Assembly: GCA_016783505.1 (NCBI GenBank)
Contig: JADHWK010000034.1
Span: 1 to 27,683 of the forward strand
Direction of reading: 5' to 3'
Source of the DNA: Candidatus Zhuqueibacterota bacterium
GTDB taxonomy: Bacteria; BS750m-G25
DNA: 27,683 nucleotides
Shown here: positions 1 through 16,244 of the stretch, in pieces
How positions within the stretch are numbered: the stretch's first letter is position 1
Layout of the letters: each line of letters starts with the position of its first letter
Program-made: the position numbers and the translations under genes
Notes under the pieces: model-generated
The model's input: the letters and a program-made list of their open reading frames with translations, nothing else
Told to the model about the DNA's origin: nothing
Database searches by the model: none

Positions 1-2111
1 TCCGGCTCCGGTTTGACGATGGGCGGGGAGATGGCATCCTTCCTCATCAGAAAGACCCAGCGAATGCTGGTCCGTTTGGTGTGCTTCTCGGGACCGCCCA
101 ACCAGTAGGGGTCCAGCATGGCACGGGAGGCGGCCGAGGCCTCGAAGCAGTAGGGTACCCCCCGATCGAGGCGGCAGTTCTCCTCCCGCATGCAGGGCTC
201 ATTGGCGCACTCCTCCTTTTTAGTGATCACGTTCTCGCACCTGGAGCGGTCAAAGAGCGGGGCCAGGTCAGGGTAATGTTTGACGAAGTTGGTAGGCATA
301 TAGAACTTCCGTTCCGGGGTATCTGCCAGCGCCCCTCCCCCCCCGTAGCGGACGAACACCAAGTCGTTGGAAACCAACTTCGCTTCAGGTTGTCGAAGTA
401 AGGAAGCAAAATGGGTGGACTTACCCGTCCCCGGGGGAGCAATCAACAGCAATCCCTTTCCGGCAAAATCCAGGCAGAAGCCCCGGATGGAATGGAGGTC
501 GAAGGACCGTTCCGAGATGTCAGCTACCATCCCCAAAGCCAGGCTCCGGAGCTGACCGTAAAAGGCGGATTTGAAAAGGACGGCCGTCTTGGATTCCGAA
601 TTGTAATAGGCCCGGGGCTCGCGACCGGGAATCCAGCCCACTGCGTAGATGATCCCGTGGGGCTCCAGATCGGCCTCCAGTTGGGCCGGATACCAGTTCT
701 CGATCCAGAAATCATAAAGGTGGGGAAGGTTGGTCCTTAACTGAATAATCACCCCGGCGATGTTAGCGTTCCATTCATAGTAGGTCTCGTAGGACAGGTG
801 CGCCTCGGCCTCGGCCACCAGGGCATCCCGTATCTGGGTGGTGACCTCGGGCTCGGTCTCTACAAACGAGCGCCTCACGGTCATGGTGTTATTCAGGGCC
901 ATCACCTTCGCCTTTCGGGTGGGCTCCAGCTTTGCCATCGCGGCGATAATCCGGTCCATCGCCTCCTCCAGCTTTTCCATGGAGGTGGCATAGGATATGC
1001 GGATATGAGAGTCAGCCCCGAAGGCATCCCCGGGGACGACGGCCACCCTGGCGTGCTTTAAAAGATAGTAGGCCAGGCCGTAGGAGTTGCGGATCTGCGT
1101 CCCCTGGAATTCTTTATTGAAATAGGATGAAAAGTTAGGGAATAGATAGAAGGCCCCCTGGGGCTCGGGGCAGGAGACCCCGGGGATCTGCCGCAATCGC
1201 TGCAGGACGAAATTCCTCCGTCGCTGAAACTCGGCCACCATCTTGGAAATCTCCGTCTGGGGACCCCGGAGGGCCTCCAGGCTGGCCATCTGGGATATGG
1301 TGCAGGCGTTGGAGGTGTTGTGGGATTGGACCTTGGCCATCCCGGCGATGAGCTCCTTTGGCCCAGCCGCATACCCGAGCCGCCAGCCGGTCATGGAATA
1401 GGCTTTCGACACCCCATTGACGATAACCGTTCGCTCCTTAACCTTGAGGCCCAGCGAGGCTAGCGAGACGAAGCGAAACCCGTCGTAGACCAGCTTCTCG
1501 TAGATCTCATCGGCAATGATCACTAGGCCCTCCTCTACGGCGATCTTAGCGATTTCTTCCAGCTCCTCCGGCGAATAGCCCATCCCGGTGGGATTTGAGG
1601 GGTTGTTCAAGATCAAGGCCTTGGTGCTGGGGGAGATGGCAGCGGAAAGCTCCTCAGGGGTGATCCGGAACCCGTTCTCCTCCTTGGCGGGAATGATGAC
1701 CGGATTGGCCTTGGCCAGGCTTACCATCGGGGGGTAGGAGACCCAGTAGGGAGCGGGGATGATGGCCTCCTCACCCTTATTGAACAGGGCCACCGACAGG
1801 TTATAAAGACAATTCTTGGCCCCGCTGGAGACGATGATCTCGTCGGGTCCGTACTCCAGCCCGTTGTCCTCTCTGAGCTTCTGGATAATGGCGGCCTTAA
1901 GCTCCGGGAGGCCCTCGTTGGCCGTATACTTGGTGTAGCCGGCGTCAATGGCCCGCTTGGCCGCCTCCCGGATGTTCTCCGGGGTGGGAAAGTCGGGCTC
2001 CCCCACCGACAGATCCACCACGTCTATCCCCTCGGCCTTCATAGTCTTGGCCTTAGCGGTGATCTTCAGAGTGGGCGAAAACCCGATTCGCTGTATTCTG
2101 TCTGCTAACAT
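1..2111 (-). CDS. Aspartate aminotransferase fused to PEPCK/HprK-like P-loop domain (partial, runs off left edge)
   Basis: Reading from ATG 2111 down to base 1 gives at least 703 codons with no stop. Residues 1-400 are a complete class I (type I-gamma) aspartate aminotransferase: SVGEPDFPTPENI near the N-terminus, NNPSNPTG, the PLP lysine K236 in SKAYSMTGWRLGY, and HIRISYA near the end of the domain. It interconverts aspartate plus 2-oxoglutarate and oxaloacetate plus glutamate. The frame continues through about 140 residues into a P-loop at about 558-566 (APPGTGKST), then SNDLVFV, LFDRSRCENV, SRAML and VFLMRKD. These appear in the same order as in the PEPCK homologue at 5001-6839 (GLTATGKST, QDDIVF, LIDRTALFENV, GRAVI, AFITRRN). 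Five cysteines (625, 635, 640, 646, 655) sit inside this domain. The C-terminus lies outside the window. The aminotransferase call is certain; the activity of the second domain (carboxykinase or serine kinase) is inference. Confidence 0.9.
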   Translation of the reverse strand, partial: MLADRIQRIGFSPTLKITAKAKTMKAEGIDVVDLSVGEPDFPTPENIREAAKRAIDAGYTKYTANEGLPELKAAIIQKLREDNGLEYGPDEIIVSSGAKNCLYNLSVALFNKGEEAIIPAPYWVSYPPMVSLAKANPVIIPAKEENGFRITPEELSAAISPSTKALILNNPSNPTGMGYSPEELEEIAKIAVEEGLVIIADEIYEKLVYDGFRFVSLASLGLKVKERTVIVNGVSKAYSMTGWRLGYAAGPKELIAGMAKVQSHNTSNACTISQMASLEALRGPQTEISKMVAEFQRRRNFVLQRLRQIPGVSCPEPQGAFYLFPNFSSYFNKEFQGTQIRNSYGLAYYLLKHARVAVVPGDAFGADSHIRISYATSMEKLEEAMDRIIAAMAKLEPTRKAKVMALNNTMTVRRSFVETEPEVTTQIRDALVAEAEAHLSYETYYEWNANIAGVIIQLRTNLPHLYDFWIENWYPAQLEADLEPHGIIYAVGWIPGREPRAYYNSESKTAVLFKSAFYGQLRSLALGMVADISERSFDLHSIRGFCLDFAGKGLLLIAPPGTGKSTHFASLLRQPEAKLVSNDLVFVRYGGGGALADTPERKFYMPTNFVKHYPDLAPLFDRSRCENVITKKEECANEPCMREENCRLDRGVPYCFEASAASRAMLDPYWLGGPEKHTKRTSIRWVFLMRKDAISPPIVKPEP

Positions 2112-2562: not shown

Positions 2563-3147
2563 TTAGCGTACTCGCTGCCAATCAGATTCGGCCAGGTAAA
2601 CTTCCAATTCTTTCCACATAGCCTCGAGGTTACAGCGCATCACGATAAGATCCTGCCTTTTACCACCCATGTCTTTCACGTACTCCGGTAGCATGGCTTT
2701 CTCGCGAAAACCAAGCCTTTTAAAGATCCTGTGAGCCCCGATCTGTGGCCGCATCATCTTCACGATAACTTCCTCAACATTTTCCTTCACCGCCAGCAGG
2801 TAGAGTTCACGCGCCATCAACATACCCAACCCTTTGCGCTGAAAGGGGCGGGCCACGATCAACCTCAGTTCTACCATGTGTTCTTTCCAGCCCGGGGCTT
2901 CCAGCTCCAGCGCTCCGTCAGCTACGATCCGGTCATCAACGACAGCTACCAGTCGCTTGACCCCGCAAGATTTCATAGTCTGGATACGTCGCTTGACAAT
3001 CTCACGCTTGGTGACGTCTACCCGAAGATATGCTCGGTCTTCTGGAGGAAGGGCTTGGAAGAAAGCATGGGACCGGTCTATATCCTCTTTCCTCAGCGGG
3101 CGGATGACAACATCACTGCCATCCTTCAGCCTCACTTTCCTTTTCAT
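2563..3147 (-). CDS. GNAT-family N-acetyltransferase
   Basis: A 194-residue protein of the GCN5-related acetyltransferase superfamily, which moves an acetyl group from acetyl-CoA to an amine. The fold signature is visible: the N-terminal strand VVIRPLRKEDID, the core strands VVDDRIVADGALEL and HMVELRLIVA, then the acetyl-CoA pyrophosphate loop RPFQRKGLGMLMARELYLLA, and IFKRLGFREKAMLPEYVKD near the C-terminus. The substrate cannot be told from sequence; small-molecule, protein N-terminal and lysine acetylation all remain possible. It lies 54 bases downstream of the flotillin gene on the same strand and is probably co-transcribed with it. A GAGG lies about ten bases upstream of the ATG. Confidence 0.85.
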   Translation of the reverse strand: MKRKVRLKDGSDVVIRPLRKEDIDRSHAFFQALPPEDRAYLRVDVTKREIVKRRIQTMKSCGVKRLVAVVDDRIVADGALELEAPGWKEHMVELRLIVARPFQRKGLGMLMARELYLLAVKENVEEVIVKMMRPQIGAHRIFKRLGFREKAMLPEYVKDMGGKRQDLIVMRCNLEAMWKELEVYLAESDWQRVR

Positions 3148-3201: not shown

Positions 3202-4650
3202 TCACCCCTTCTTCCCCTCCCCGCCAGACTCTTTGAGCTCCTTTTCTTCAGAAGTATCTGTTATTTTCTTCGAAGCCGGGAGGTTTTGCAAGAACTTCTT
3301 AATGTCCACCCCGCTCAGGGACTCGATCACGGTGGGCAGTTGTGCTAAAATCTGGGCCACCTGGGCGGTGAGCCGGGAAACCCCGGAAGAGCCGGTCCCC
3401 CCGTCAACCATAACGATCTTATCCACTTTGGACAGGGGTTCGGACACCGCCCGGGCCAGCTCGGGAAGTTTTTCCACAAACATCTGGTAGATGGCCGCCT
3501 GGTTGTATTCCCCCCAGGATTCGGCCTTCTTCTGCATCGCCTCGGCCTCAGCGGCCCCTTGGGCCCGGATGAGCTCGGCTTCTGCTAGCCCCTCCAGCTT
3601 CTTAGCCTCGGCACGACCCTTGGCCTCGGCCTCCAATCGGAACCGCTCCGCCTCGGCTTCGGCTTGAACCTGGTAGCGCTTGGCATCCGCCGCCTTCTTG
3701 ACGGTGGACTCCAGCTCCTTCTCTTTCCTCAGGATCTCCTTCTCCTCGACCTTAATCCCCCCCTCCTTTTCCACCAGCTTGACCTGGTATTCTTCACGCT
3801 TCAGTTGCCGGCTAACCCTCTGTTTTTCCAACTCGTAGGCCAGGTCGGCCTCGGCCTTGCGCTGGTTGATGGCAGCCTGGTACTCGGCCCGTCGGGTCTC
3901 GTAGTCCCGACTGGCCCGGGCGATCTCGGCCTCGGCCTGGAATTTGGCGATGTCACCCTCCTTGCGGGCCTGAGCTGACTTAATGGTGGCATCCCGGTCG
4001 GTCTCGGCCTGGGCCACCGCCGCATCCCGCTTCACTTGGGCGATCCGGGGTCTCCCCAGCGCCTCCAGATAGCCCTGGGTATCGCTGATGTCTTTCAAGG
4101 CAAAGGAGAGCACCGCCAGCCCCATTCGGGCAAAGTCGTCAGAGGCTGAGGTCATAACCCGTTGGGCGAACTCCTCCCGCTGCTGGTAGATCTCCTCAAC
4201 CTTCATAGACCCCAAGACCGCCCGGACGCATCCCTCCAGGATCTGATTGGCGACATCTTTAATCCCTTCAGCCCCGGTCCCTAAAAACTGCTCCGCCGCC
4301 TGACGAATGGAGTAATCGTCCCCACCGACCTTTACCTGGGCTACCGCCTCGGCGATGATGTGAACCCCCTGGGCGGTGAGCACCTCCGGGGTTTTGATGG
4401 GGATGGTGAACACCCCCAGAGGGAGGACCTGGGCGCGCTCAAGCAAGGGCAGGACGAAGGTCCCCCCACCGATTCGGTAGCGGTAGCCGATTTTTTTCCG
4501 GGTCCCATCTGGGTCAGTCACCGTCCGCTTCCGACCCCCGGAGACGATCAGCACCTCGTTTGGGCCCACCTTCCGATATTGAGTAGCCAGGGCCAGCAGG
4601 ACTAGACCCACCACTACTACAATAATACTGAGCCAGATATACCATTCCAT
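3202..4650 (-). CDS. Flotillin-like SPFH/band 7 membrane scaffold protein
   Basis: A 482-residue bacterial flotillin. An N-terminal hydrophobic segment (about residues 4-24) anchors it in the inner membrane. An SPFH/band 7 domain follows (about 25-205, with QYRKVGPNEVLIVSGG and VLSFALKDISD), then a long charged Ala/Glu/Lys/Arg-rich coiled coil (about 210-380), and a conserved flotillin tail (EYNQAAIYQMFVEKLPELA, PLSKVDKIVMVDGG, LPTVIESLSGVD). Flotillins assemble into oligomers that organise membrane microdomains and affect fluidity. The start is well supported by AGGAGGAG directly upstream of the ATG. An NfeD partner, common beside bacterial flotillins, is not present; the downstream neighbour is the GNAT gene. 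Confidence 0.93.
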   Translation of the reverse strand: MEWYIWLSIIVVVVGLVLLALATQYRKVGPNEVLIVSGGRKRTVTDPDGTRKKIGYRYRIGGGTFVLPLLERAQVLPLGVFTIPIKTPEVLTAQGVHIIAEAVAQVKVGGDDYSIRQAAEQFLGTGAEGIKDVANQILEGCVRAVLGSMKVEEIYQQREEFAQRVMTSASDDFARMGLAVLSFALKDISDTQGYLEALGRPRIAQVKRDAAVAQAETDRDATIKSAQARKEGDIAKFQAEAEIARASRDYETRRAEYQAAINQRKAEADLAYELEKQRVSRQLKREEYQVKLVEKEGGIKVEEKEILRKEKELESTVKKAADAKRYQVQAEAEAERFRLEAEAKGRAEAKKLEGLAEAELIRAQGAAEAEAMQKKAESWGEYNQAAIYQMFVEKLPELARAVSEPLSKVDKIVMVDGGTGSSGVSRLTAQVAQILAQLPTVIESLSGVDIKKFLQNLPASKKITDTSEEKELKESGGEGKKG

Positions 4651-4662
4651 CTCTCCTCCTCT

Positions 4663-4680
4663 GTCCCGAAACTTCGGGAC
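4663..4680. repeat. Short palindrome of the TCCCGAA/TTCGGGA family
   Basis: GTCCCGAA and TTCGGGAC are separated by two bases, 13 bases upstream of the flotillin start codon and outside its Shine-Dalgarno sequence. Confidence 0.6.
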
Positions 4681-4950: not shown

Positions 4951-4966
4951 TCCCGAAGCTTCGGGA
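4951..4966. repeat. Short palindrome of the TCCCGAA/TTCGGGA family
   Basis: A perfect 16-base palindrome identical to the core of the 38-base palindrome at 2328-2365. It is flanked by AAAG and TTTT, so a transcript could form a longer stem. It lies 34 bases before the PEPCK-homologue start codon. Confidence 0.6.
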
Positions 4967-5000: not shown

Positions 5001-6839
5001 ATGAGTAACGGTATCTACGAGGAAGAAGACTCTCAGAGGTTCTATGAGAACCTGACTCCACTGCTGAACGGCCCTAACATTCAGCACGTCAATCTCAAAG
5101 GGTTAAAATCCAGGGCGATCAAGACCGCCACCCGCACCCGGTTCGGATCCTACGGCTGGCGGTCGGCGGTCTCCAGCCGGATAGCCCCTCTGACCGTCTA
5201 CCTGGGGTCCGAACCGGTAAGATTACCCAAGATGACCGCGGTGCAGAAGAATATCGTAGAAAACGCCCCGGAGGAGTTGCATAAGGTTCTCCATCTGATG
5301 AGGTCCCTCCCTTTTGTTCACCTCCGCCGCCAGATGGGAAATAACGACGAATACAATCCCATCTGTAACCTCTATGTCTCGGTGGCCGATTCGAAAAACC
5401 ACCGCATTGCCTACATGTGGGGCCATACCCTCCGAAAACCGGACAAAAAGCCCGGGCCCGAGTTCACCATGATCCACATTCCGGAGGAGCATCATCTCAG
5501 GCAACAGGTCCTGGTTTTGCCGGAATATAATCTAAACATCGCTCTGGGGACCGACTACATGGGGGAGGACAAGAAGGGGTTCTTAAGACAGGCCATGTGG
5601 TATGCTGACGAACACGGCATGCTGGGCCTGCATGCGGGGACGAAGCTGGTGACCGTCCGTGATGCCAAAGATGACCGATTGAAAAGATACGGGGTTTTCC
5701 TGTTCGGCTTGACGGCCACCGGAAAGTCCACCTGGTCCTGTCACCCGTTGGGATTGGATCCAAACAGGGGGGAGTGTACCCAGGTGATCCAGGACGACAT
5801 CGTCTTTCTCAAAAAAGACGGCTCGGCCCTGGGCACGGAAACCGGGTTCTTCGTCAAGACGGATGTGGAGAAGGGCCTTCAGGAGGCCATGTATAATGCC
5901 TTGATTGACCGCACTGCTCTGTTCGAAAACGTTATGATTGATGCCGCCGGGAACCCCGATTTCTTGGACGAGCGCTTGTGCGCCAACGGCAGGGCTGTTA
6001 TCCAGAGGGATAAGTTAAAAATTAAAAGGGGACGGCGGCTGGTGGGGATCAGTTCCAAAAGCATCAACATGCCACCCTTAGACGACCTTGACGGTTTGAT
6101 CTTCGCCTTCATCACCCGCAGGAACACCATCATGCCCTTCGCCCAGGAGCTCACCCCGGAGCAGGCGTTGTTGGCCTATCTATGGGGGGAATCCACCCAC
6201 TCCTATGCCTCCCAACCGCTCAAGGCCGGGGAATCGGTGCGGATTGTAGGGACCGACCCCTTCATCATCGGCTCCCGGGCCAGGAAGGTGAACCGATTCT
6301 ATGACATCATCATGGATTTATTGGACAGATTTCCGGGCAAGGTGAGGTTCTATCAGTACAACACCGGCGGCGTCGGTGAGATCCTGGAGAGCTATGTGGA
6401 AGGGGAAATCGAAAAGAAGAGGGAAATCCAAAAGGTCACCCGGGTGCCCATTAGCGAGATGGCCGCTATTCAGCGCGGGGATCTGAGGGGGACGAACCGA
6501 TATGAAAAAGGGAGGTTTGGAACCCATGAGATCGTGGCCTGTGAGGACAGGGGTCTTAAAGATTTTGACCCCAAGAAATTCTATTCGGAAGAGCAGATTG
6601 AATCCTATCTGGGGGACATTGTCAAGGGGCGGCGAAAGTTTACTGAGGAGATCGCAGACGAGGGGCTGAACCCGGAGATCATCCGGGCGGCGGAAAGATC
6701 CTTCGAGGTTTCCCGACGGGTAAAAACCAAACCTCCACCCGAGGGATTACCCCAAGGGGAACTAGCAGAATCAGGGGAAGAGATTCCTTGGAAACCGAAA
6801 ACCCGACCCCCCCGACCCCTGGGCAGGAGATACAGATAA
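5001..6839 (+). CDS. ATP-type phosphoenolpyruvate carboxykinase homologue (divergent)
   Basis: A 612-residue protein of the ATP-PEPCK family, which converts oxaloacetate plus ATP to PEP, CO2 and ADP. Motifs follow the family order: GTDYMGEDKKGF (about 183-194, with the metal/substrate lysine), LHAGTKL with H211, the P-loop GLTATGKST at 236-244, the DD pair at 265-266, ENV at 309-311, NGR with R331, and the C-terminal FITRRNTIMPFAQELTPEQA and YQYNTGGVG. These correspond to the E. coli PckA stretches around Y207/K213, H232, GLSGTGKTT, D269 and R333. It is longer than the usual 530-540 residues, with a charged Pro-rich tail (about 570-612) encoded by sequence repeated at 7903-8099. The start follows AGGATAGAG. 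The family call is firm; carboxykinase activity rather than another kinase role is likely but not proven. Confidence 0.8.
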   Translation: MSNGIYEEEDSQRFYENLTPLLNGPNIQHVNLKGLKSRAIKTATRTRFGSYGWRSAVSSRIAPLTVYLGSEPVRLPKMTAVQKNIVENAPEELHKVLHLMRSLPFVHLRRQMGNNDEYNPICNLYVSVADSKNHRIAYMWGHTLRKPDKKPGPEFTMIHIPEEHHLRQQVLVLPEYNLNIALGTDYMGEDKKGFLRQAMWYADEHGMLGLHAGTKLVTVRDAKDDRLKRYGVFLFGLTATGKSTWSCHPLGLDPNRGECTQVIQDDIVFLKKDGSALGTETGFFVKTDVEKGLQEAMYNALIDRTALFENVMIDAAGNPDFLDERLCANGRAVIQRDKLKIKRGRRLVGISSKSINMPPLDDLDGLIFAFITRRNTIMPFAQELTPEQALLAYLWGESTHSYASQPLKAGESVRIVGTDPFIIGSRARKVNRFYDIIMDLLDRFPGKVRFYQYNTGGVGEILESYVEGEIEKKREIQKVTRVPISEMAAIQRGDLRGTNRYEKGRFGTHEIVACEDRGLKDFDPKKFYSEEQIESYLGDIVKGRRKFTEEIADEGLNPEIIRAAERSFEVSRRVKTKPPPEGLPQGELAESGEEIPWKPKTRPPRPLGRRYR

Positions 6840-11948: not shown

Positions 11949-14900
11949 TTAATGCTCATTACAGTACTTCATCATAACATTATGTACTCTTAGAGCCTGA
12001 ATGACAAATGTCTCCAGCCGTGCCTCGATAAGCTGAGGGAATGGGCTGCCATCGCTCTCTATAGCCAGGAAGGGCATATTGGGCACCTCGCTTGTTACCT
12101 GGTCAGTCATTCTATCCTTTCTGAACCGCATCAAATGTTCCCTGTCCATCTTCAGGTTTAGTATTGACTCGCTTAGACGGTTGGGCATACATCCAAACGG
12201 ACCGATGGCGATAGACCCGCAGAATTCTGTTCCTACCTCAGCCATGGGACCACCCACTGTGAGGATCGCCTCACCGGTCAGATTACGGGAAATGAAGTTC
12301 TCTCCTACCTCGATTACATGATCCATTTCCACTATACGAGGTATGTACCATCCCGATTCTGCCATTATCCGTTTGACATCTCTTTCAACCCTGACCATGA
12401 TTTTATGTTTCGCTTTGTTTAATAGAAGAGTTTTGAAGCTCACAGCCTTATCTGACAATTTGTGTTCAAGACACCAATCAACATAATACATCCATTCGTG
12501 CATAGGAGCTACATAAGATACAATACCACTTTCTGCAAGGCGTTCAGGAAGCCAACGTCGAGACAAACCCTCCTTACGCACATATATTTCGCCTACGACC
12601 AGAACTTGGGGTGCATCCCTTAGCGGCTTTTTCTGAGGTATTCGCTTCAGGTCTGCCACTGCTTGCTTAAGAGCTTCCTGAGTACTACTTTTTCCATCTT
12701 CAAGTCCCTTAACAACATAGGACCAGATAGCCTGAAGCTCCTCTAAAGCTTTATCCCGATCTTCGGCAACAGCAAGGATGGAATTGTATATATCCTCAAA
12801 CACATCAGCAATAACAACTGCATTCCAGCCCTGTAGTATGAACTCCGTCCCCAGGCCTCCGTAGGCATCTTCACCATCCAGTGACATAAAAGCTACATTT
12901 TTCATCTTATGCTTTTTCACAAAGTCACGCATGAAAATCTGATACTGCCCGAACCTGCATGGTCCATTAGCAGTGGGCATAAAGTAAACTGTAACCTCGT
13001 TTTGAGACCGTGCATCACGGAGATATTTTAAAAGAGCACCAGTGGTCAATTGTAACGGAAGACACTCTTTACACATTGTATTGCCTCGCCCAAGCTTCAG
13101 GTCCTCCTCATCCATAGCGGGTAAGGCTACCACTTTGATTCCCTGATTCCTGATTGCCGCGCTTATCCCCTGCGTTCCAAACTGGCTCATGGAGGGAATA
13201 ACGAGAGTTACACGAGGATCAAATAATGAAATCTCCTCTCCTTCCGAGGTGGTTATAAGGAATCTCTTATTATCGAATCTGGTTATTGCAGGCTGGAATT
13301 TTTCGAACCCTTTTGCTTTCTGCTCCTTGCTTGCCTGCAATTTTCGATAACGAGCAACTATGTCCAAAAATGCCTCTACCCGAGTCTCAAGACCAGCATC
13401 AGCTGTATGATTGTCCAACTCAAGTGTCAGTGATGGCTTTCTACCCATGATATCCCTGAAGTACCCAACAATGAACGAGTCAGGACCACACGAGAAATTG
13501 GTGATAAACGTTCCGAATAATTGGGGATGATCCTTAATGCCCATAGCACCTTTCAGGATAATTTGGCCCATAGACCAATACATGTGTTCCTTGACAGGGT
13601 ACTTTTTAAGGTCAAGAAAATCGTCGGGAATAATCGTGATACCCCGAGAGGCAAACTTGTGGGGGATACCCTTATTCGCCTCGGGCACAAAGGCATTGTA
13701 CGACCTTCCGAACAGGACAATACCAATCCTGTCGTGATCTCTCTCGATCTCGTGAATGGTCTTTTTCCCTAACTCAACCATGTATTCTTGCATTTGCTCT
13801 TGGACGTCGCGTGCCTTATCAAAGGCAGCTCCTGCCTTCTTTTTACTCACACCCAGTTCAGATGCCATAGACTTGAATGCCTCCTTCTGTTTACCTGTAC
13901 TAGATGCGAGATCTATGAAAGGTGCGATAATTATTGGTCCATTGAGCAACTGGTCCTCGAAAGCACTACGCAAATAGTATGGTTCACCCTGTAACAGGGG
14001 ACACAGTTTCGACGGATAGTACCCATTTTCGACCTTTACACCAGGTATATGGGGAAGGAAAATATAATCTGGATTAATATCCAGAAGGTTCTTAAAATAA
14101 CCATGGGATATCTCGCATGGGAAACAAAAGGGTGCCGAGCGCTGGTCCACTCCATCCGGGTCCACCTCCTTTGACAGTACAGGCCGAAAACCTAACTCCT
14201 TAAAGAAATGAGCAAACAATGGATAGTATGTGTTTGTCAGGAAAGACCTTAAGATGCCTACTGTGGGTGCACCTTCGGGCAGGTCGGTCAGATCGGGAGC
14301 AAACTCATCGAACACCAACTTCTGCCGTAGAACAACCAAGTCATGCTTCCCCGGGTCCATCTTGATCTTGTGACGGATATTATAATACCTGTTGCATGCG
14401 CCCCCAAAGGGATATGTCTTACCCTCAATGACCACGCGGTTAATAGAACACCCAAGATCACACTTTTCTTTACCCCCGGGACATGTAAAGGATTCTTTAT
14501 ATTCCACCTCGCGGTTGACCAATGTTTCAAGCTCGAACAGTTGTTCCTTCATCAAGTTCCGATCAAGCCGATGTTTAATTTCAAGGGCAACACCGTAAGC
14601 ACCTATTAATCCCGGTTCAGGTGGCACGATGATCTCTTTACCGGATAATGCCGCCATGGCTATTGGCACTGAACGGTTGTAGCAAACCCCTCCCTGCATG
14701 AAGACTTTCTTTCCCACAGGTCGCGCCCCCTTGACCCGATTCACATAGTTCATACAAATGGAATACACCAGACCTGCAACAATGTCCTCCTTTGGTATAC
14801 CCTCGTGAAATGTGTTTTTAATGTCCGATGATATGAAGGCTGCGCACTGGTCGTTAAAGTTCGGGGGGCGATTACCCTTCATAGCCCAATCGGCGATGTC

Positions 14901-16244
14901 CTCCATTTCGATGCCCAGGGTCTCTTTTGCAGACTCTTCAAGGAACGACCCGGTGCCTGCGGAACAAGCCTCATTCATGGCATAGTCGCTCGCTACACCA
15001 TTTGTCACCAATGTGTATTTTGCATCCTGACCACCTATTTCGAATATAGTATCTACATCGGGATCAAAGTGAAGAGAGGCGGTGGCATGTGCTATTATCT
15101 CATTGATTACACCGTCAGTAAGTGCATGTAGTCCCGCTATTTTTCTGCCAGAACCGGTCACACCCAGCCCACGAATGACTACTTTTGTGCCATTCAACTG
15201 GTTCAGAAGGGTCTTATAACATTTTCGTGAAGCTCCCACCGGATCGCCATTCGTTCGAAGGTACTCACTGGCGAGTATCTTCAGGTCTGACTCGCGCAAC
15301 AGGACGATCTTGGTCGTAGTCGAACCGACGTCCAATCCCAAGATGCACCTGTCATCAGCCCGTGGCCTCCCCCGCTTCATCTGAGCAAAGGTTACCATAT
15401 GCTCGAAATCACATAATGGTCGGTGGTAATCGAATTGTGATATACGTTTGGTGAAGAGTTGGCTTAGATCATCAAAAGGCCTTGTCTCATTATCCAAAGC
15501 CCAGAGAGCAGCCCCAAGAGCCTCAAAATAAGTCGCCTCCTTTGGTACATTCAAGTTACTAATCTCACGTCCAAGATAATCAATCATAACCTTATTTTTA
15601 GTCGTGCCGCCAACAACCATAACGTTCTCTTTCGGTATATTTTTGAGCAATTCGAGGACCTTACTTGCCATCATCTCGCACAAACCAGCCACCACCCGAC
15701 CTTTGGGCACACCTTTATTGGTCGCATGTGTACAATCGCTCTTACAAAAAACTGAACATCGGCCGGACACATAATACGGTTCTTCATGCTGTGCATACCT
15801 GATTGCTTCCTTTATGCTTACATCCATTCGCCTTGTCTGCTGGATAAAGAATTCACCCGTTCCGGAAGCGCATTTATTCCCTGTATAGACTTTACTAATC
15901 TTTCCAGAGTTGTCAAGTTTATAGACAATAAAAGTCTCCCCACCGGCACTTATGATAGCACTATACGGCTTATTATCACCATTGACATACTTCAATGAGC
16001 ATTCGATAGCTAGCGGCTCTGAGATGCGGCTCAGGTTAAGGAAATCCTTAAATCTCCGACCAGTGACAGCAATTGAATCAATTTTTTTCAGATCAAGCTG
16101 CCCTAGCAAGTTTTTCACTACGTGTTTGGGGTTTCCCTCATGTGCATGAGATAGGACATTGTTAATCCCTATCTCCTTTCCATTCTTTTCAACATCAACC
16201 AGAGTTATTGTTGATGCTCCACAACAAAGACCTATTGAGCGCAT
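11949..16244 (-). CDS. Giant CoA-substrate-specific enzyme activase (BcrA/BadF/HgdC family, two ASKHA domains)
   Basis: A 1431-residue activator of the 2-hydroxyacyl-CoA dehydratase/benzoyl-CoA reductase type, which uses ATP and a [4Fe-4S] cluster to inject an electron into a partner enzyme. The first ASKHA ATPase domain covers about 1-255 (NKCASGTGEFF, MVVGGTTKN). The second is at about 295-575, with LGLDVGSTTTK, FEIGGQDAKY, NEACSAGTGSFLEE, NDQCAAF and MQGGVCYN. A DUF2229-like region follows (TCPGGKEKC, PFGGACNRYYN, RSAPFCFPCEISHGY), then a long C-terminal region with dehydratase-subunit-like character (EDAYGGLGTEF, MAEVGTEFCGS, FGCMPNRLSE). The length is normal for this fused family. The start follows GGAG. 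No separate dehydratase subunits are nearby. It is oxygen-sensitive chemistry, implying an anaerobe. Confidence 0.92.
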   Translation of the reverse strand: MRSIGLCCGASTITLVDVEKNGKEIGINNVLSHAHEGNPKHVVKNLLGQLDLKKIDSIAVTGRRFKDFLNLSRISEPLAIECSLKYVNGDNKPYSAIISAGGETFIVYKLDNSGKISKVYTGNKCASGTGEFFIQQTRRMDVSIKEAIRYAQHEEPYYVSGRCSVFCKSDCTHATNKGVPKGRVVAGLCEMMASKVLELLKNIPKENVMVVGGTTKNKVMIDYLGREISNLNVPKEATYFEALGAALWALDNETRPFDDLSQLFTKRISQFDYHRPLCDFEHMVTFAQMKRGRPRADDRCILGLDVGSTTTKIVLLRESDLKILASEYLRTNGDPVGASRKCYKTLLNQLNGTKVVIRGLGVTGSGRKIAGLHALTDGVINEIIAHATASLHFDPDVDTIFEIGGQDAKYTLVTNGVASDYAMNEACSAGTGSFLEESAKETLGIEMEDIADWAMKGNRPPNFNDQCAAFISSDIKNTFHEGIPKEDIVAGLVYSICMNYVNRVKGARPVGKKVFMQGGVCYNRSVPIAMAALSGKEIIVPPEPGLIGAYGVALEIKHRLDRNLMKEQLFELETLVNREVEYKESFTCPGGKEKCDLGCSINRVVIEGKTYPFGGACNRYYNIRHKIKMDPGKHDLVVLRQKLVFDEFAPDLTDLPEGAPTVGILRSFLTNTYYPLFAHFFKELGFRPVLSKEVDPDGVDQRSAPFCFPCEISHGYFKNLLDINPDYIFLPHIPGVKVENGYYPSKLCPLLQGEPYYLRSAFEDQLLNGPIIIAPFIDLASSTGKQKEAFKSMASELGVSKKKAGAAFDKARDVQEQMQEYMVELGKKTIHEIERDHDRIGIVLFGRSYNAFVPEANKGIPHKFASRGITIIPDDFLDLKKYPVKEHMYWSMGQIILKGAMGIKDHPQLFGTFITNFSCGPDSFIVGYFRDIMGRKPSLTLELDNHTADAGLETRVEAFLDIVARYRKLQASKEQKAKGFEKFQPAITRFDNKRFLITTSEGEEISLFDPRVTLVIPSMSQFGTQGISAAIRNQGIKVVALPAMDEEDLKLGRGNTMCKECLPLQLTTGALLKYLRDARSQNEVTVYFMPTANGPCRFGQYQIFMRDFVKKHKMKNVAFMSLDGEDAYGGLGTEFILQGWNAVVIADVFEDIYNSILAVAEDRDKALEELQAIWSYVVKGLEDGKSSTQEALKQAVADLKRIPQKKPLRDAPQVLVVGEIYVRKEGLSRRWLPERLAESGIVSYVAPMHEWMYYVDWCLEHKLSDKAVSFKTLLLNKAKHKIMVRVERDVKRIMAESGWYIPRIVEMDHVIEVGENFISRNLTGEAILTVGGPMAEVGTEFCGSIAIGPFGCMPNRLSESILNLKMDREHLMRFRKDRMTDQVTSEVPNMPFLAIESDGSPFPQLIEARLETFVIQALRVHNVMMKYCNEH

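Follow-up and report, generated by a model that had tools for sequence, protein, structure and literature searches.

A conserved fusion of aspartate aminotransferase to a PEPCK-fold domain is encoded beside a flotillin gene in about a dozen bacterial phyla

Aspartate aminotransferase interconverts aspartate and 2-oxoglutarate with oxaloacetate and glutamate. The class-I aspartate/prephenate aminotransferases represented by PDB entries 1j32, 6f35 and 5wmh are stand-alone enzymes, with no domain resembling phosphoenolpyruvate carboxykinase (PEPCK). The flotillin FloT/YuaG is partnered by an NfeD protein and, to our knowledge, definite metabolic partners are rarely known for flotillins. We know of no fusion between HPr kinase (HprK) and an aminotransferase. 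According to a review of the phosphoenolpyruvate (PEP)-pyruvate-oxaloacetate node, NADP malic enzyme carries a C-terminal, catalytically inactive phosphate acetyltransferase domain (PMC8100219). The gene described here likewise appears to join an enzyme of central metabolism to an inactive enzyme domain. However, the enzymes are different and the malic enzyme is not known to have a flotillin partner. A text search of the same review found no passage on such a fusion (PMC8100219). Searches of the open-licence literature found neither the fusion nor its flotillin partner described, nor the second domain treated as a family, in agreement with the initial annotation, which knew of no described protein with this architecture. 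The component folds are all known and the architecture itself is certain.

The window, by which we mean the whole 27,683-nucleotide stretch of DNA analysed, is contig C33 of a 2.5 Mb genome that is 60% complete. An open frame extends on the minus strand from an ATG at position 2111 to the window edge, and encodes 703 residues. Only the contig end cuts this frame. The initial annotation had described the frame as uninterrupted, which held, and proposed extending it leftwards. The first 139 bases of contig C16 are identical to the window end, an overlap shared with no other contig of the genome. Joining the contigs gives a fusion protein of 780 amino acids; residues 704-780 and the stop codon are encoded by C16 (L008:138-371, with the stop at 369-371). 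Residues 1-398 (918..2111, minus strand) match class-I aspartate aminotransferases over their full length (Pfam Aminotran_1_2, E 2.5e-80; PDB entries including 1j32, with a lowest E of 4.5e-117). We refer to the PEPCK-fold domain formed by residues 399-780 as KIN, of which residues 399-703 lie in the window (1..917, minus strand).

All of the sequence motifs previously listed for this protein were located in the frame, and the earlier observation was confirmed overall. The codon for the PLP-binding Lys236 is at 1404-1406 (minus strand). In KIN, the P-loop APPGTGKST occupies residues 558-566 (414..440, minus strand) and the second nucleotide/metal motif, SNDLVFVR, begins at residue 581 (348..371, minus strand). 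These are followed by DRSRCENV (residues 621-628), SRAML (from residue 662) and VFLMRKD (residues 686-692). The aminotransferase half is complete, as had been claimed. Lys236, Asp201, Tyr204, Arg244, Arg371 and the acidic-substrate residue Lys99 are conserved in homologues, and the catalytic residues are nearly invariant. Two loci, L028 and L068, are extreme outliers in the tree used below to compare the paralogue with GTP-PEPCK. They are most likely wrong-frame reads, should be disregarded, and are probably behind stray letters in the aminotransferase alignment.

The same architecture was sought in other genomes. A KIN profile scan of 85,000 species genomes identified 158 loci and we analysed the best 80, ranked by similarity to the fused query. 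Among these best 80 of 158, aminotransferase and KIN share one frame, with no stop between them, at 79 of 79 testable loci. Because the ranking used a fused query, the fused share among all 158 may be lower. Records whose titles indicate whole chromosomes and that contain the fusion include L022, L025, L056, L077 and L097, and the fusion is also present in the single-contig genome G379. The loci span about a dozen phyla. Lineages named in the record titles are Zixibacteria, Aminicenantes, Acidobacteria, Planctomycetota, Bacteroidetes/Ignavibacteria, Calditrichota, Latescibacterota, Gemmatimonadota, TA06, KSB1, Eisenbacteria and others. Trees of the two domains agree (patristic distances, r 0.87), as expected if both were inherited together, and the linker is conserved. 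We also surveyed 386 genomes chosen across bacterial families. Five of the genes recovered were aminotransferase-KIN fusions, two were KIN-PEPCK fusions (G039 and G128) and one encoded a distant relative of 600 amino acids (G008). The latter (L015, 502-2301, minus strand) has the KIN core, belongs to no Pfam family and is encoded beside an ABC-2-type permease-like ORF.

Three other settings for these genes were considered and rejected. A scan of viral contigs contained no KIN relative, which argues against viral spread. PADLOC gave no match for the fusion protein, the flotillin or the PEPCK paralogue described below, which argues against a defence system. Among plasmids, no record covered at least 80% of the query and, in the matches listed, coverage was of the aminotransferase part only.

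A gene for a FloT-like flotillin is directly upstream of the fusion, on the same strand, at 71 of 71 testable loci among the best 80 of 158, at a median distance of 66 bases. This most constant partner was omitted from the initial annotation. In the window, the flotillin (482 amino acids; 3202..4650, minus strand) has a Band_7 domain (E 2.4e-27) and a flotillin domain (E 1.4e-8), as does FloT/YuaG. However, its genomic partner is a metabolic fusion protein, not an NfeD protein, and its score against NCBIfam FloT (431 bits) is below the equivalog cutoff of 700. A GNAT acetyltransferase gene (2563..3147, minus strand; Acetyltransf_3, E 4e-6) lies between flotillin and fusion in the window. The GNAT gene was matched in none of the 80 related loci (the best 80 of 158) and is probably not part of the module.

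The second neighbour is a divergent PEPCK paralogue (612 amino acids; 5001..6839, plus strand; PEPCK_ATP, E 5.1e-26). This adjoins the fusion in 55 of the best 80 of 158 loci, where it is downstream in 46 cases, divergently transcribed in 5 and, in the other 4, upstream on the strand of the fusion. The window contains both flotillin and paralogue, with the paralogue divergently transcribed; the divergent order also occurs in L022, L029, L030, L089 and L090. In G379, which is a single contig and 100% complete, flotillin, fusion and paralogue are in a row. A nucleoside diphosphate kinase gene is found between fusion and paralogue in L093, L096, L097 and L098. Loci L101 (6295-8979, 894 amino acids) and L102 (7401-10142, 913 amino acids) encode proteins that combine a KIN-like with a PEPCK domain. 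No aminotransferase or flotillin is encoded near either, and L101 is beside an adenylosuccinate synthetase-like ORF. The occurrence of KIN-PEPCK fusions in two genomes supports a direct partnership, with KIN and PEPCK acting together. The suggestion that the fused domain belongs with the separate PEPCK homologue is borne out by these fusions and by the adjacency of the genes.

The paralogue resembles PEPCK in fold and in catalytic residues. Its fold is that of PEPCK over nearly the full length (Z 29.9, 481 residues). The score against PF01293 (91.8 bits) is above the cutoff of 26.5, yet far below the approximately 730 bits of canonical PckA. Scores are also below the curated PckA cutoffs (NF006821, 297 versus 369 bits; TIGR00224, 27 versus 590 bits). 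In 29 sequences Arg60, Tyr186, Lys191/192, His211, Lys242, Asp265/266 and Arg331 are invariant, although the placement of Arg60 is less certain than that of the other residues. Hence, the paralogue has the PEPCK catalytic set (E. coli Arg65, Lys212/213, His232, the P-loop, Asp268/269 and Arg333), despite its distance from canonical PckA.

The distribution of other PEPCK genes is also suggestive. Canonical ATP-PEPCK accompanies the paralogue in 5 of 27 genomes and is absent in most checked. Of 13 genomes that lack an intact paralogue, 9 carry GTP-PEPCK; of 43 that have one, none does. Completeness is established for a minority of these genomes. The exchange corresponds to only about two independent occurrences in the phylogeny and, with few independent pairs, a tree-based test fell short of significance. 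The one GTP-PEPCK genome that still has the paralogue gene (L085, 5500-6967) has a damaged copy, from which some 260 internal bases have been deleted. The counts suggest that the paralogue probably serves as the PEPCK of the host organisms.

To place KIN we used a close homologue. An AlphaFold2 model of the L021 KIN domain, built with 69 sequences, had a pLDDT of 90.7 and a pTM of 0.89. Its best Foldseek matches were ATP-PEPCKs. Alignment of the model to residues 38-455 of Thermus PEPCK, using VIA-align, gave Z 30.0 and an rmsd of 2.9 Å for 344 of 386 residues; values for residues 51-466 of E. coli PckA were similar. Since the model aligns across both, KIN contains the N-terminal and P-loop domains of PEPCK. 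Profile-profile comparison also linked KIN to the paralogue (E 2e-6) and to canonical PEPCK (E 1e-4). As judged from the model, KIN is a near-complete PEPCK fold, related to PEPCK over nearly its whole length. The initial annotation had called the second half of the protein PEPCK-like, and this was correct. Conversely, PEPCK_ATP (PF01293) was matched neither by the window KIN nor by any of the 69 homologues (E 0.01).

It had been suggested that the fusion channels aspartate to PEP, both halves being active, with oxaloacetate passed to the fused domain. The relationship to PEPCK stands; catalysis by KIN is less likely. The evidence is from residues equated by profile alignment, not structural superposition. 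On this basis, the PEPCK metal-binding lysine (E. coli Lys213) is not kept in KIN in either register, and is mostly Ser or Leu among the 69 homologues. The position of PEPCK His232, which is also that of the HprK catalytic His (HG motif), is Arg in 61 of 69. The P-loop is variable; GTGKS becomes GTKKT in many members, often as GPKGTKKT, Arg replaces the Lys in 9 of 69 and 14 of 69 lack the Ser/Thr after it. PEPCK Asp268-Asp269 is mostly Asn-Asp, with the second Asp kept in 63 of 69. Hence, KIN appears to have lost most PEPCK catalytic residues and to lack the catalytic sets of both PEPCK and HprK, including key metal and phosphate residues of PckA. Against this, the window KIN has a textbook P-loop, GTGKST, so may bind or use ATP, and the invariant Tyr124 of KIN may match PEPCK Tyr207. 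However, the neighbouring paralogue, a gene of its own, has the complete set of residues, and genomes with the fusion but no paralogue often have GTP-PEPCK. We consider channelling by the fusion itself unlikely.

A second proposal was that KIN phosphorylates something in response to amino-acid status. Here, KIN would be an HprK-like protein or peptide kinase, the aminotransferase would be the amino-acid sensor, and the substrate could be the flotillin or another membrane protein. HPr kinase is the first profile match of KIN (E 0.003), and no gene accompanies the fusion more constantly than flotillin. In Pfam and NCBIfam, residues 399-780 gave no significant family match, the weak hits being to HPr kinase. 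Thus, Hpr_kinase_C scored 13.5 bits against the window KIN and 19.6 against L021, below the gathering score of 33.3, and weakly matched 13 of 69 members. The likeness to HprK (PF07475) is confined to about 60 alignable residues around the P-loop, compared with the 344-residue fold match to PEPCK, from N-terminal through P-loop domain. In addition, most members have another residue in place of the HprK catalytic His, and the P-loop varies. Kinase activity is conceivable, yet the fold is closer to PEPCK, and we judge this explanation less likely again.

Glu52, Trp53, Asn54, Tyr124, Arg194, Arg207, Lys208, Glu232, Asn233, Asp273, Trp276, Arg286, Asn335 and Asn366 (L021 numbering) are invariant in KIN, which is evidently under strong selection for some role. 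The most conserved block, EWNANIAG...QLRTNLPHLYDFWIENWYPAQLE (675..776, minus strand), is within the PEPCK N-terminal domain fold and has columns invariant in the 69 homologues. The conserved elements EWNxN...QLRTN...NWYPA, RK, EN and DP.W are not the motif set of PEPCK itself and suggest a selected site. KIN might therefore have a new activity that does not involve phosphotransfer, such as oxaloacetate decarboxylation or conversion of the aminotransferase product to an unusual metabolite. However, beyond flotillin and PEPCK, no pathway genes recur near the fusion across lineages, and of the three alternative activities this is the one we find hardest to favour. Finally, the initial annotation had raised the possibility of an assembly error, or of homologues always encoded as two genes; while the window gene does end at a contig end, recurrence of the in-frame fusion at 79 other loci, whole chromosomes included, with a conserved linker, leads us to reject an assembly or annotation artefact as almost certainly wrong.

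The reading that we prefer, and to which we give an even chance, is a flotillin-scaffolded aspartate-oxaloacetate-PEP module in which KIN is a regulatory or docking pseudo-PEPCK and not a second active enzyme. Briefly, the aminotransferase would interconvert aspartate and oxaloacetate. The divergent, probably active paralogue would, in most lineages, interconvert oxaloacetate and PEP. The flotillin would anchor fusion and paralogue at the membrane. KIN would dock the paralogue and/or sense oxaloacetate, PEP or nucleotide and, in this way, may couple aspartate transamination to the oxaloacetate-PEP step. More tentatively, the module could be a flotillin-scaffolded metabolon at this node in many uncultured phyla, where a pseudo-PEPCK recruits and controls a divergent class of PEPCK. 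We regard this wider proposal as possible rather than probable.

Docking of the paralogue cannot be the whole role of KIN. No paralogue was detectable anywhere in 12 of 23 genomes checked, most of which had been picked because no paralogue adjoined the fusion, and the fusion was kept. The paralogue therefore cannot be all that KIN depends on. Such genomes keep KIN together with flotillin, so KIN must do more than dock the paralogue. If the module operates as we suggest, it would be an undescribed, widely conserved organisation of a central metabolic branch point. It would give one bacterial flotillin a clear metabolic partner, and a domain of about 380 residues, absent from Pfam, would be recognised as a pseudoenzyme. 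The module would also account for the interconversion of oxaloacetate and PEP, in many candidate-phylum bacteria, without canonical PEPCK.

Two further features of the window were observed. The palindrome TCCCGAAGCTTCGGGA occurs three times in intergenic gaps around the module (2339-2354, 4664-4679 and 4951-4966), compared with 0.02 expected by chance, and is a REP-like dispersed repeat. Further along (11949-16244, minus strand) is an ORF of 1431 amino acids that, by eye, resembles a fusion of the activator and subunits of 2-hydroxyacyl-CoA dehydratase.
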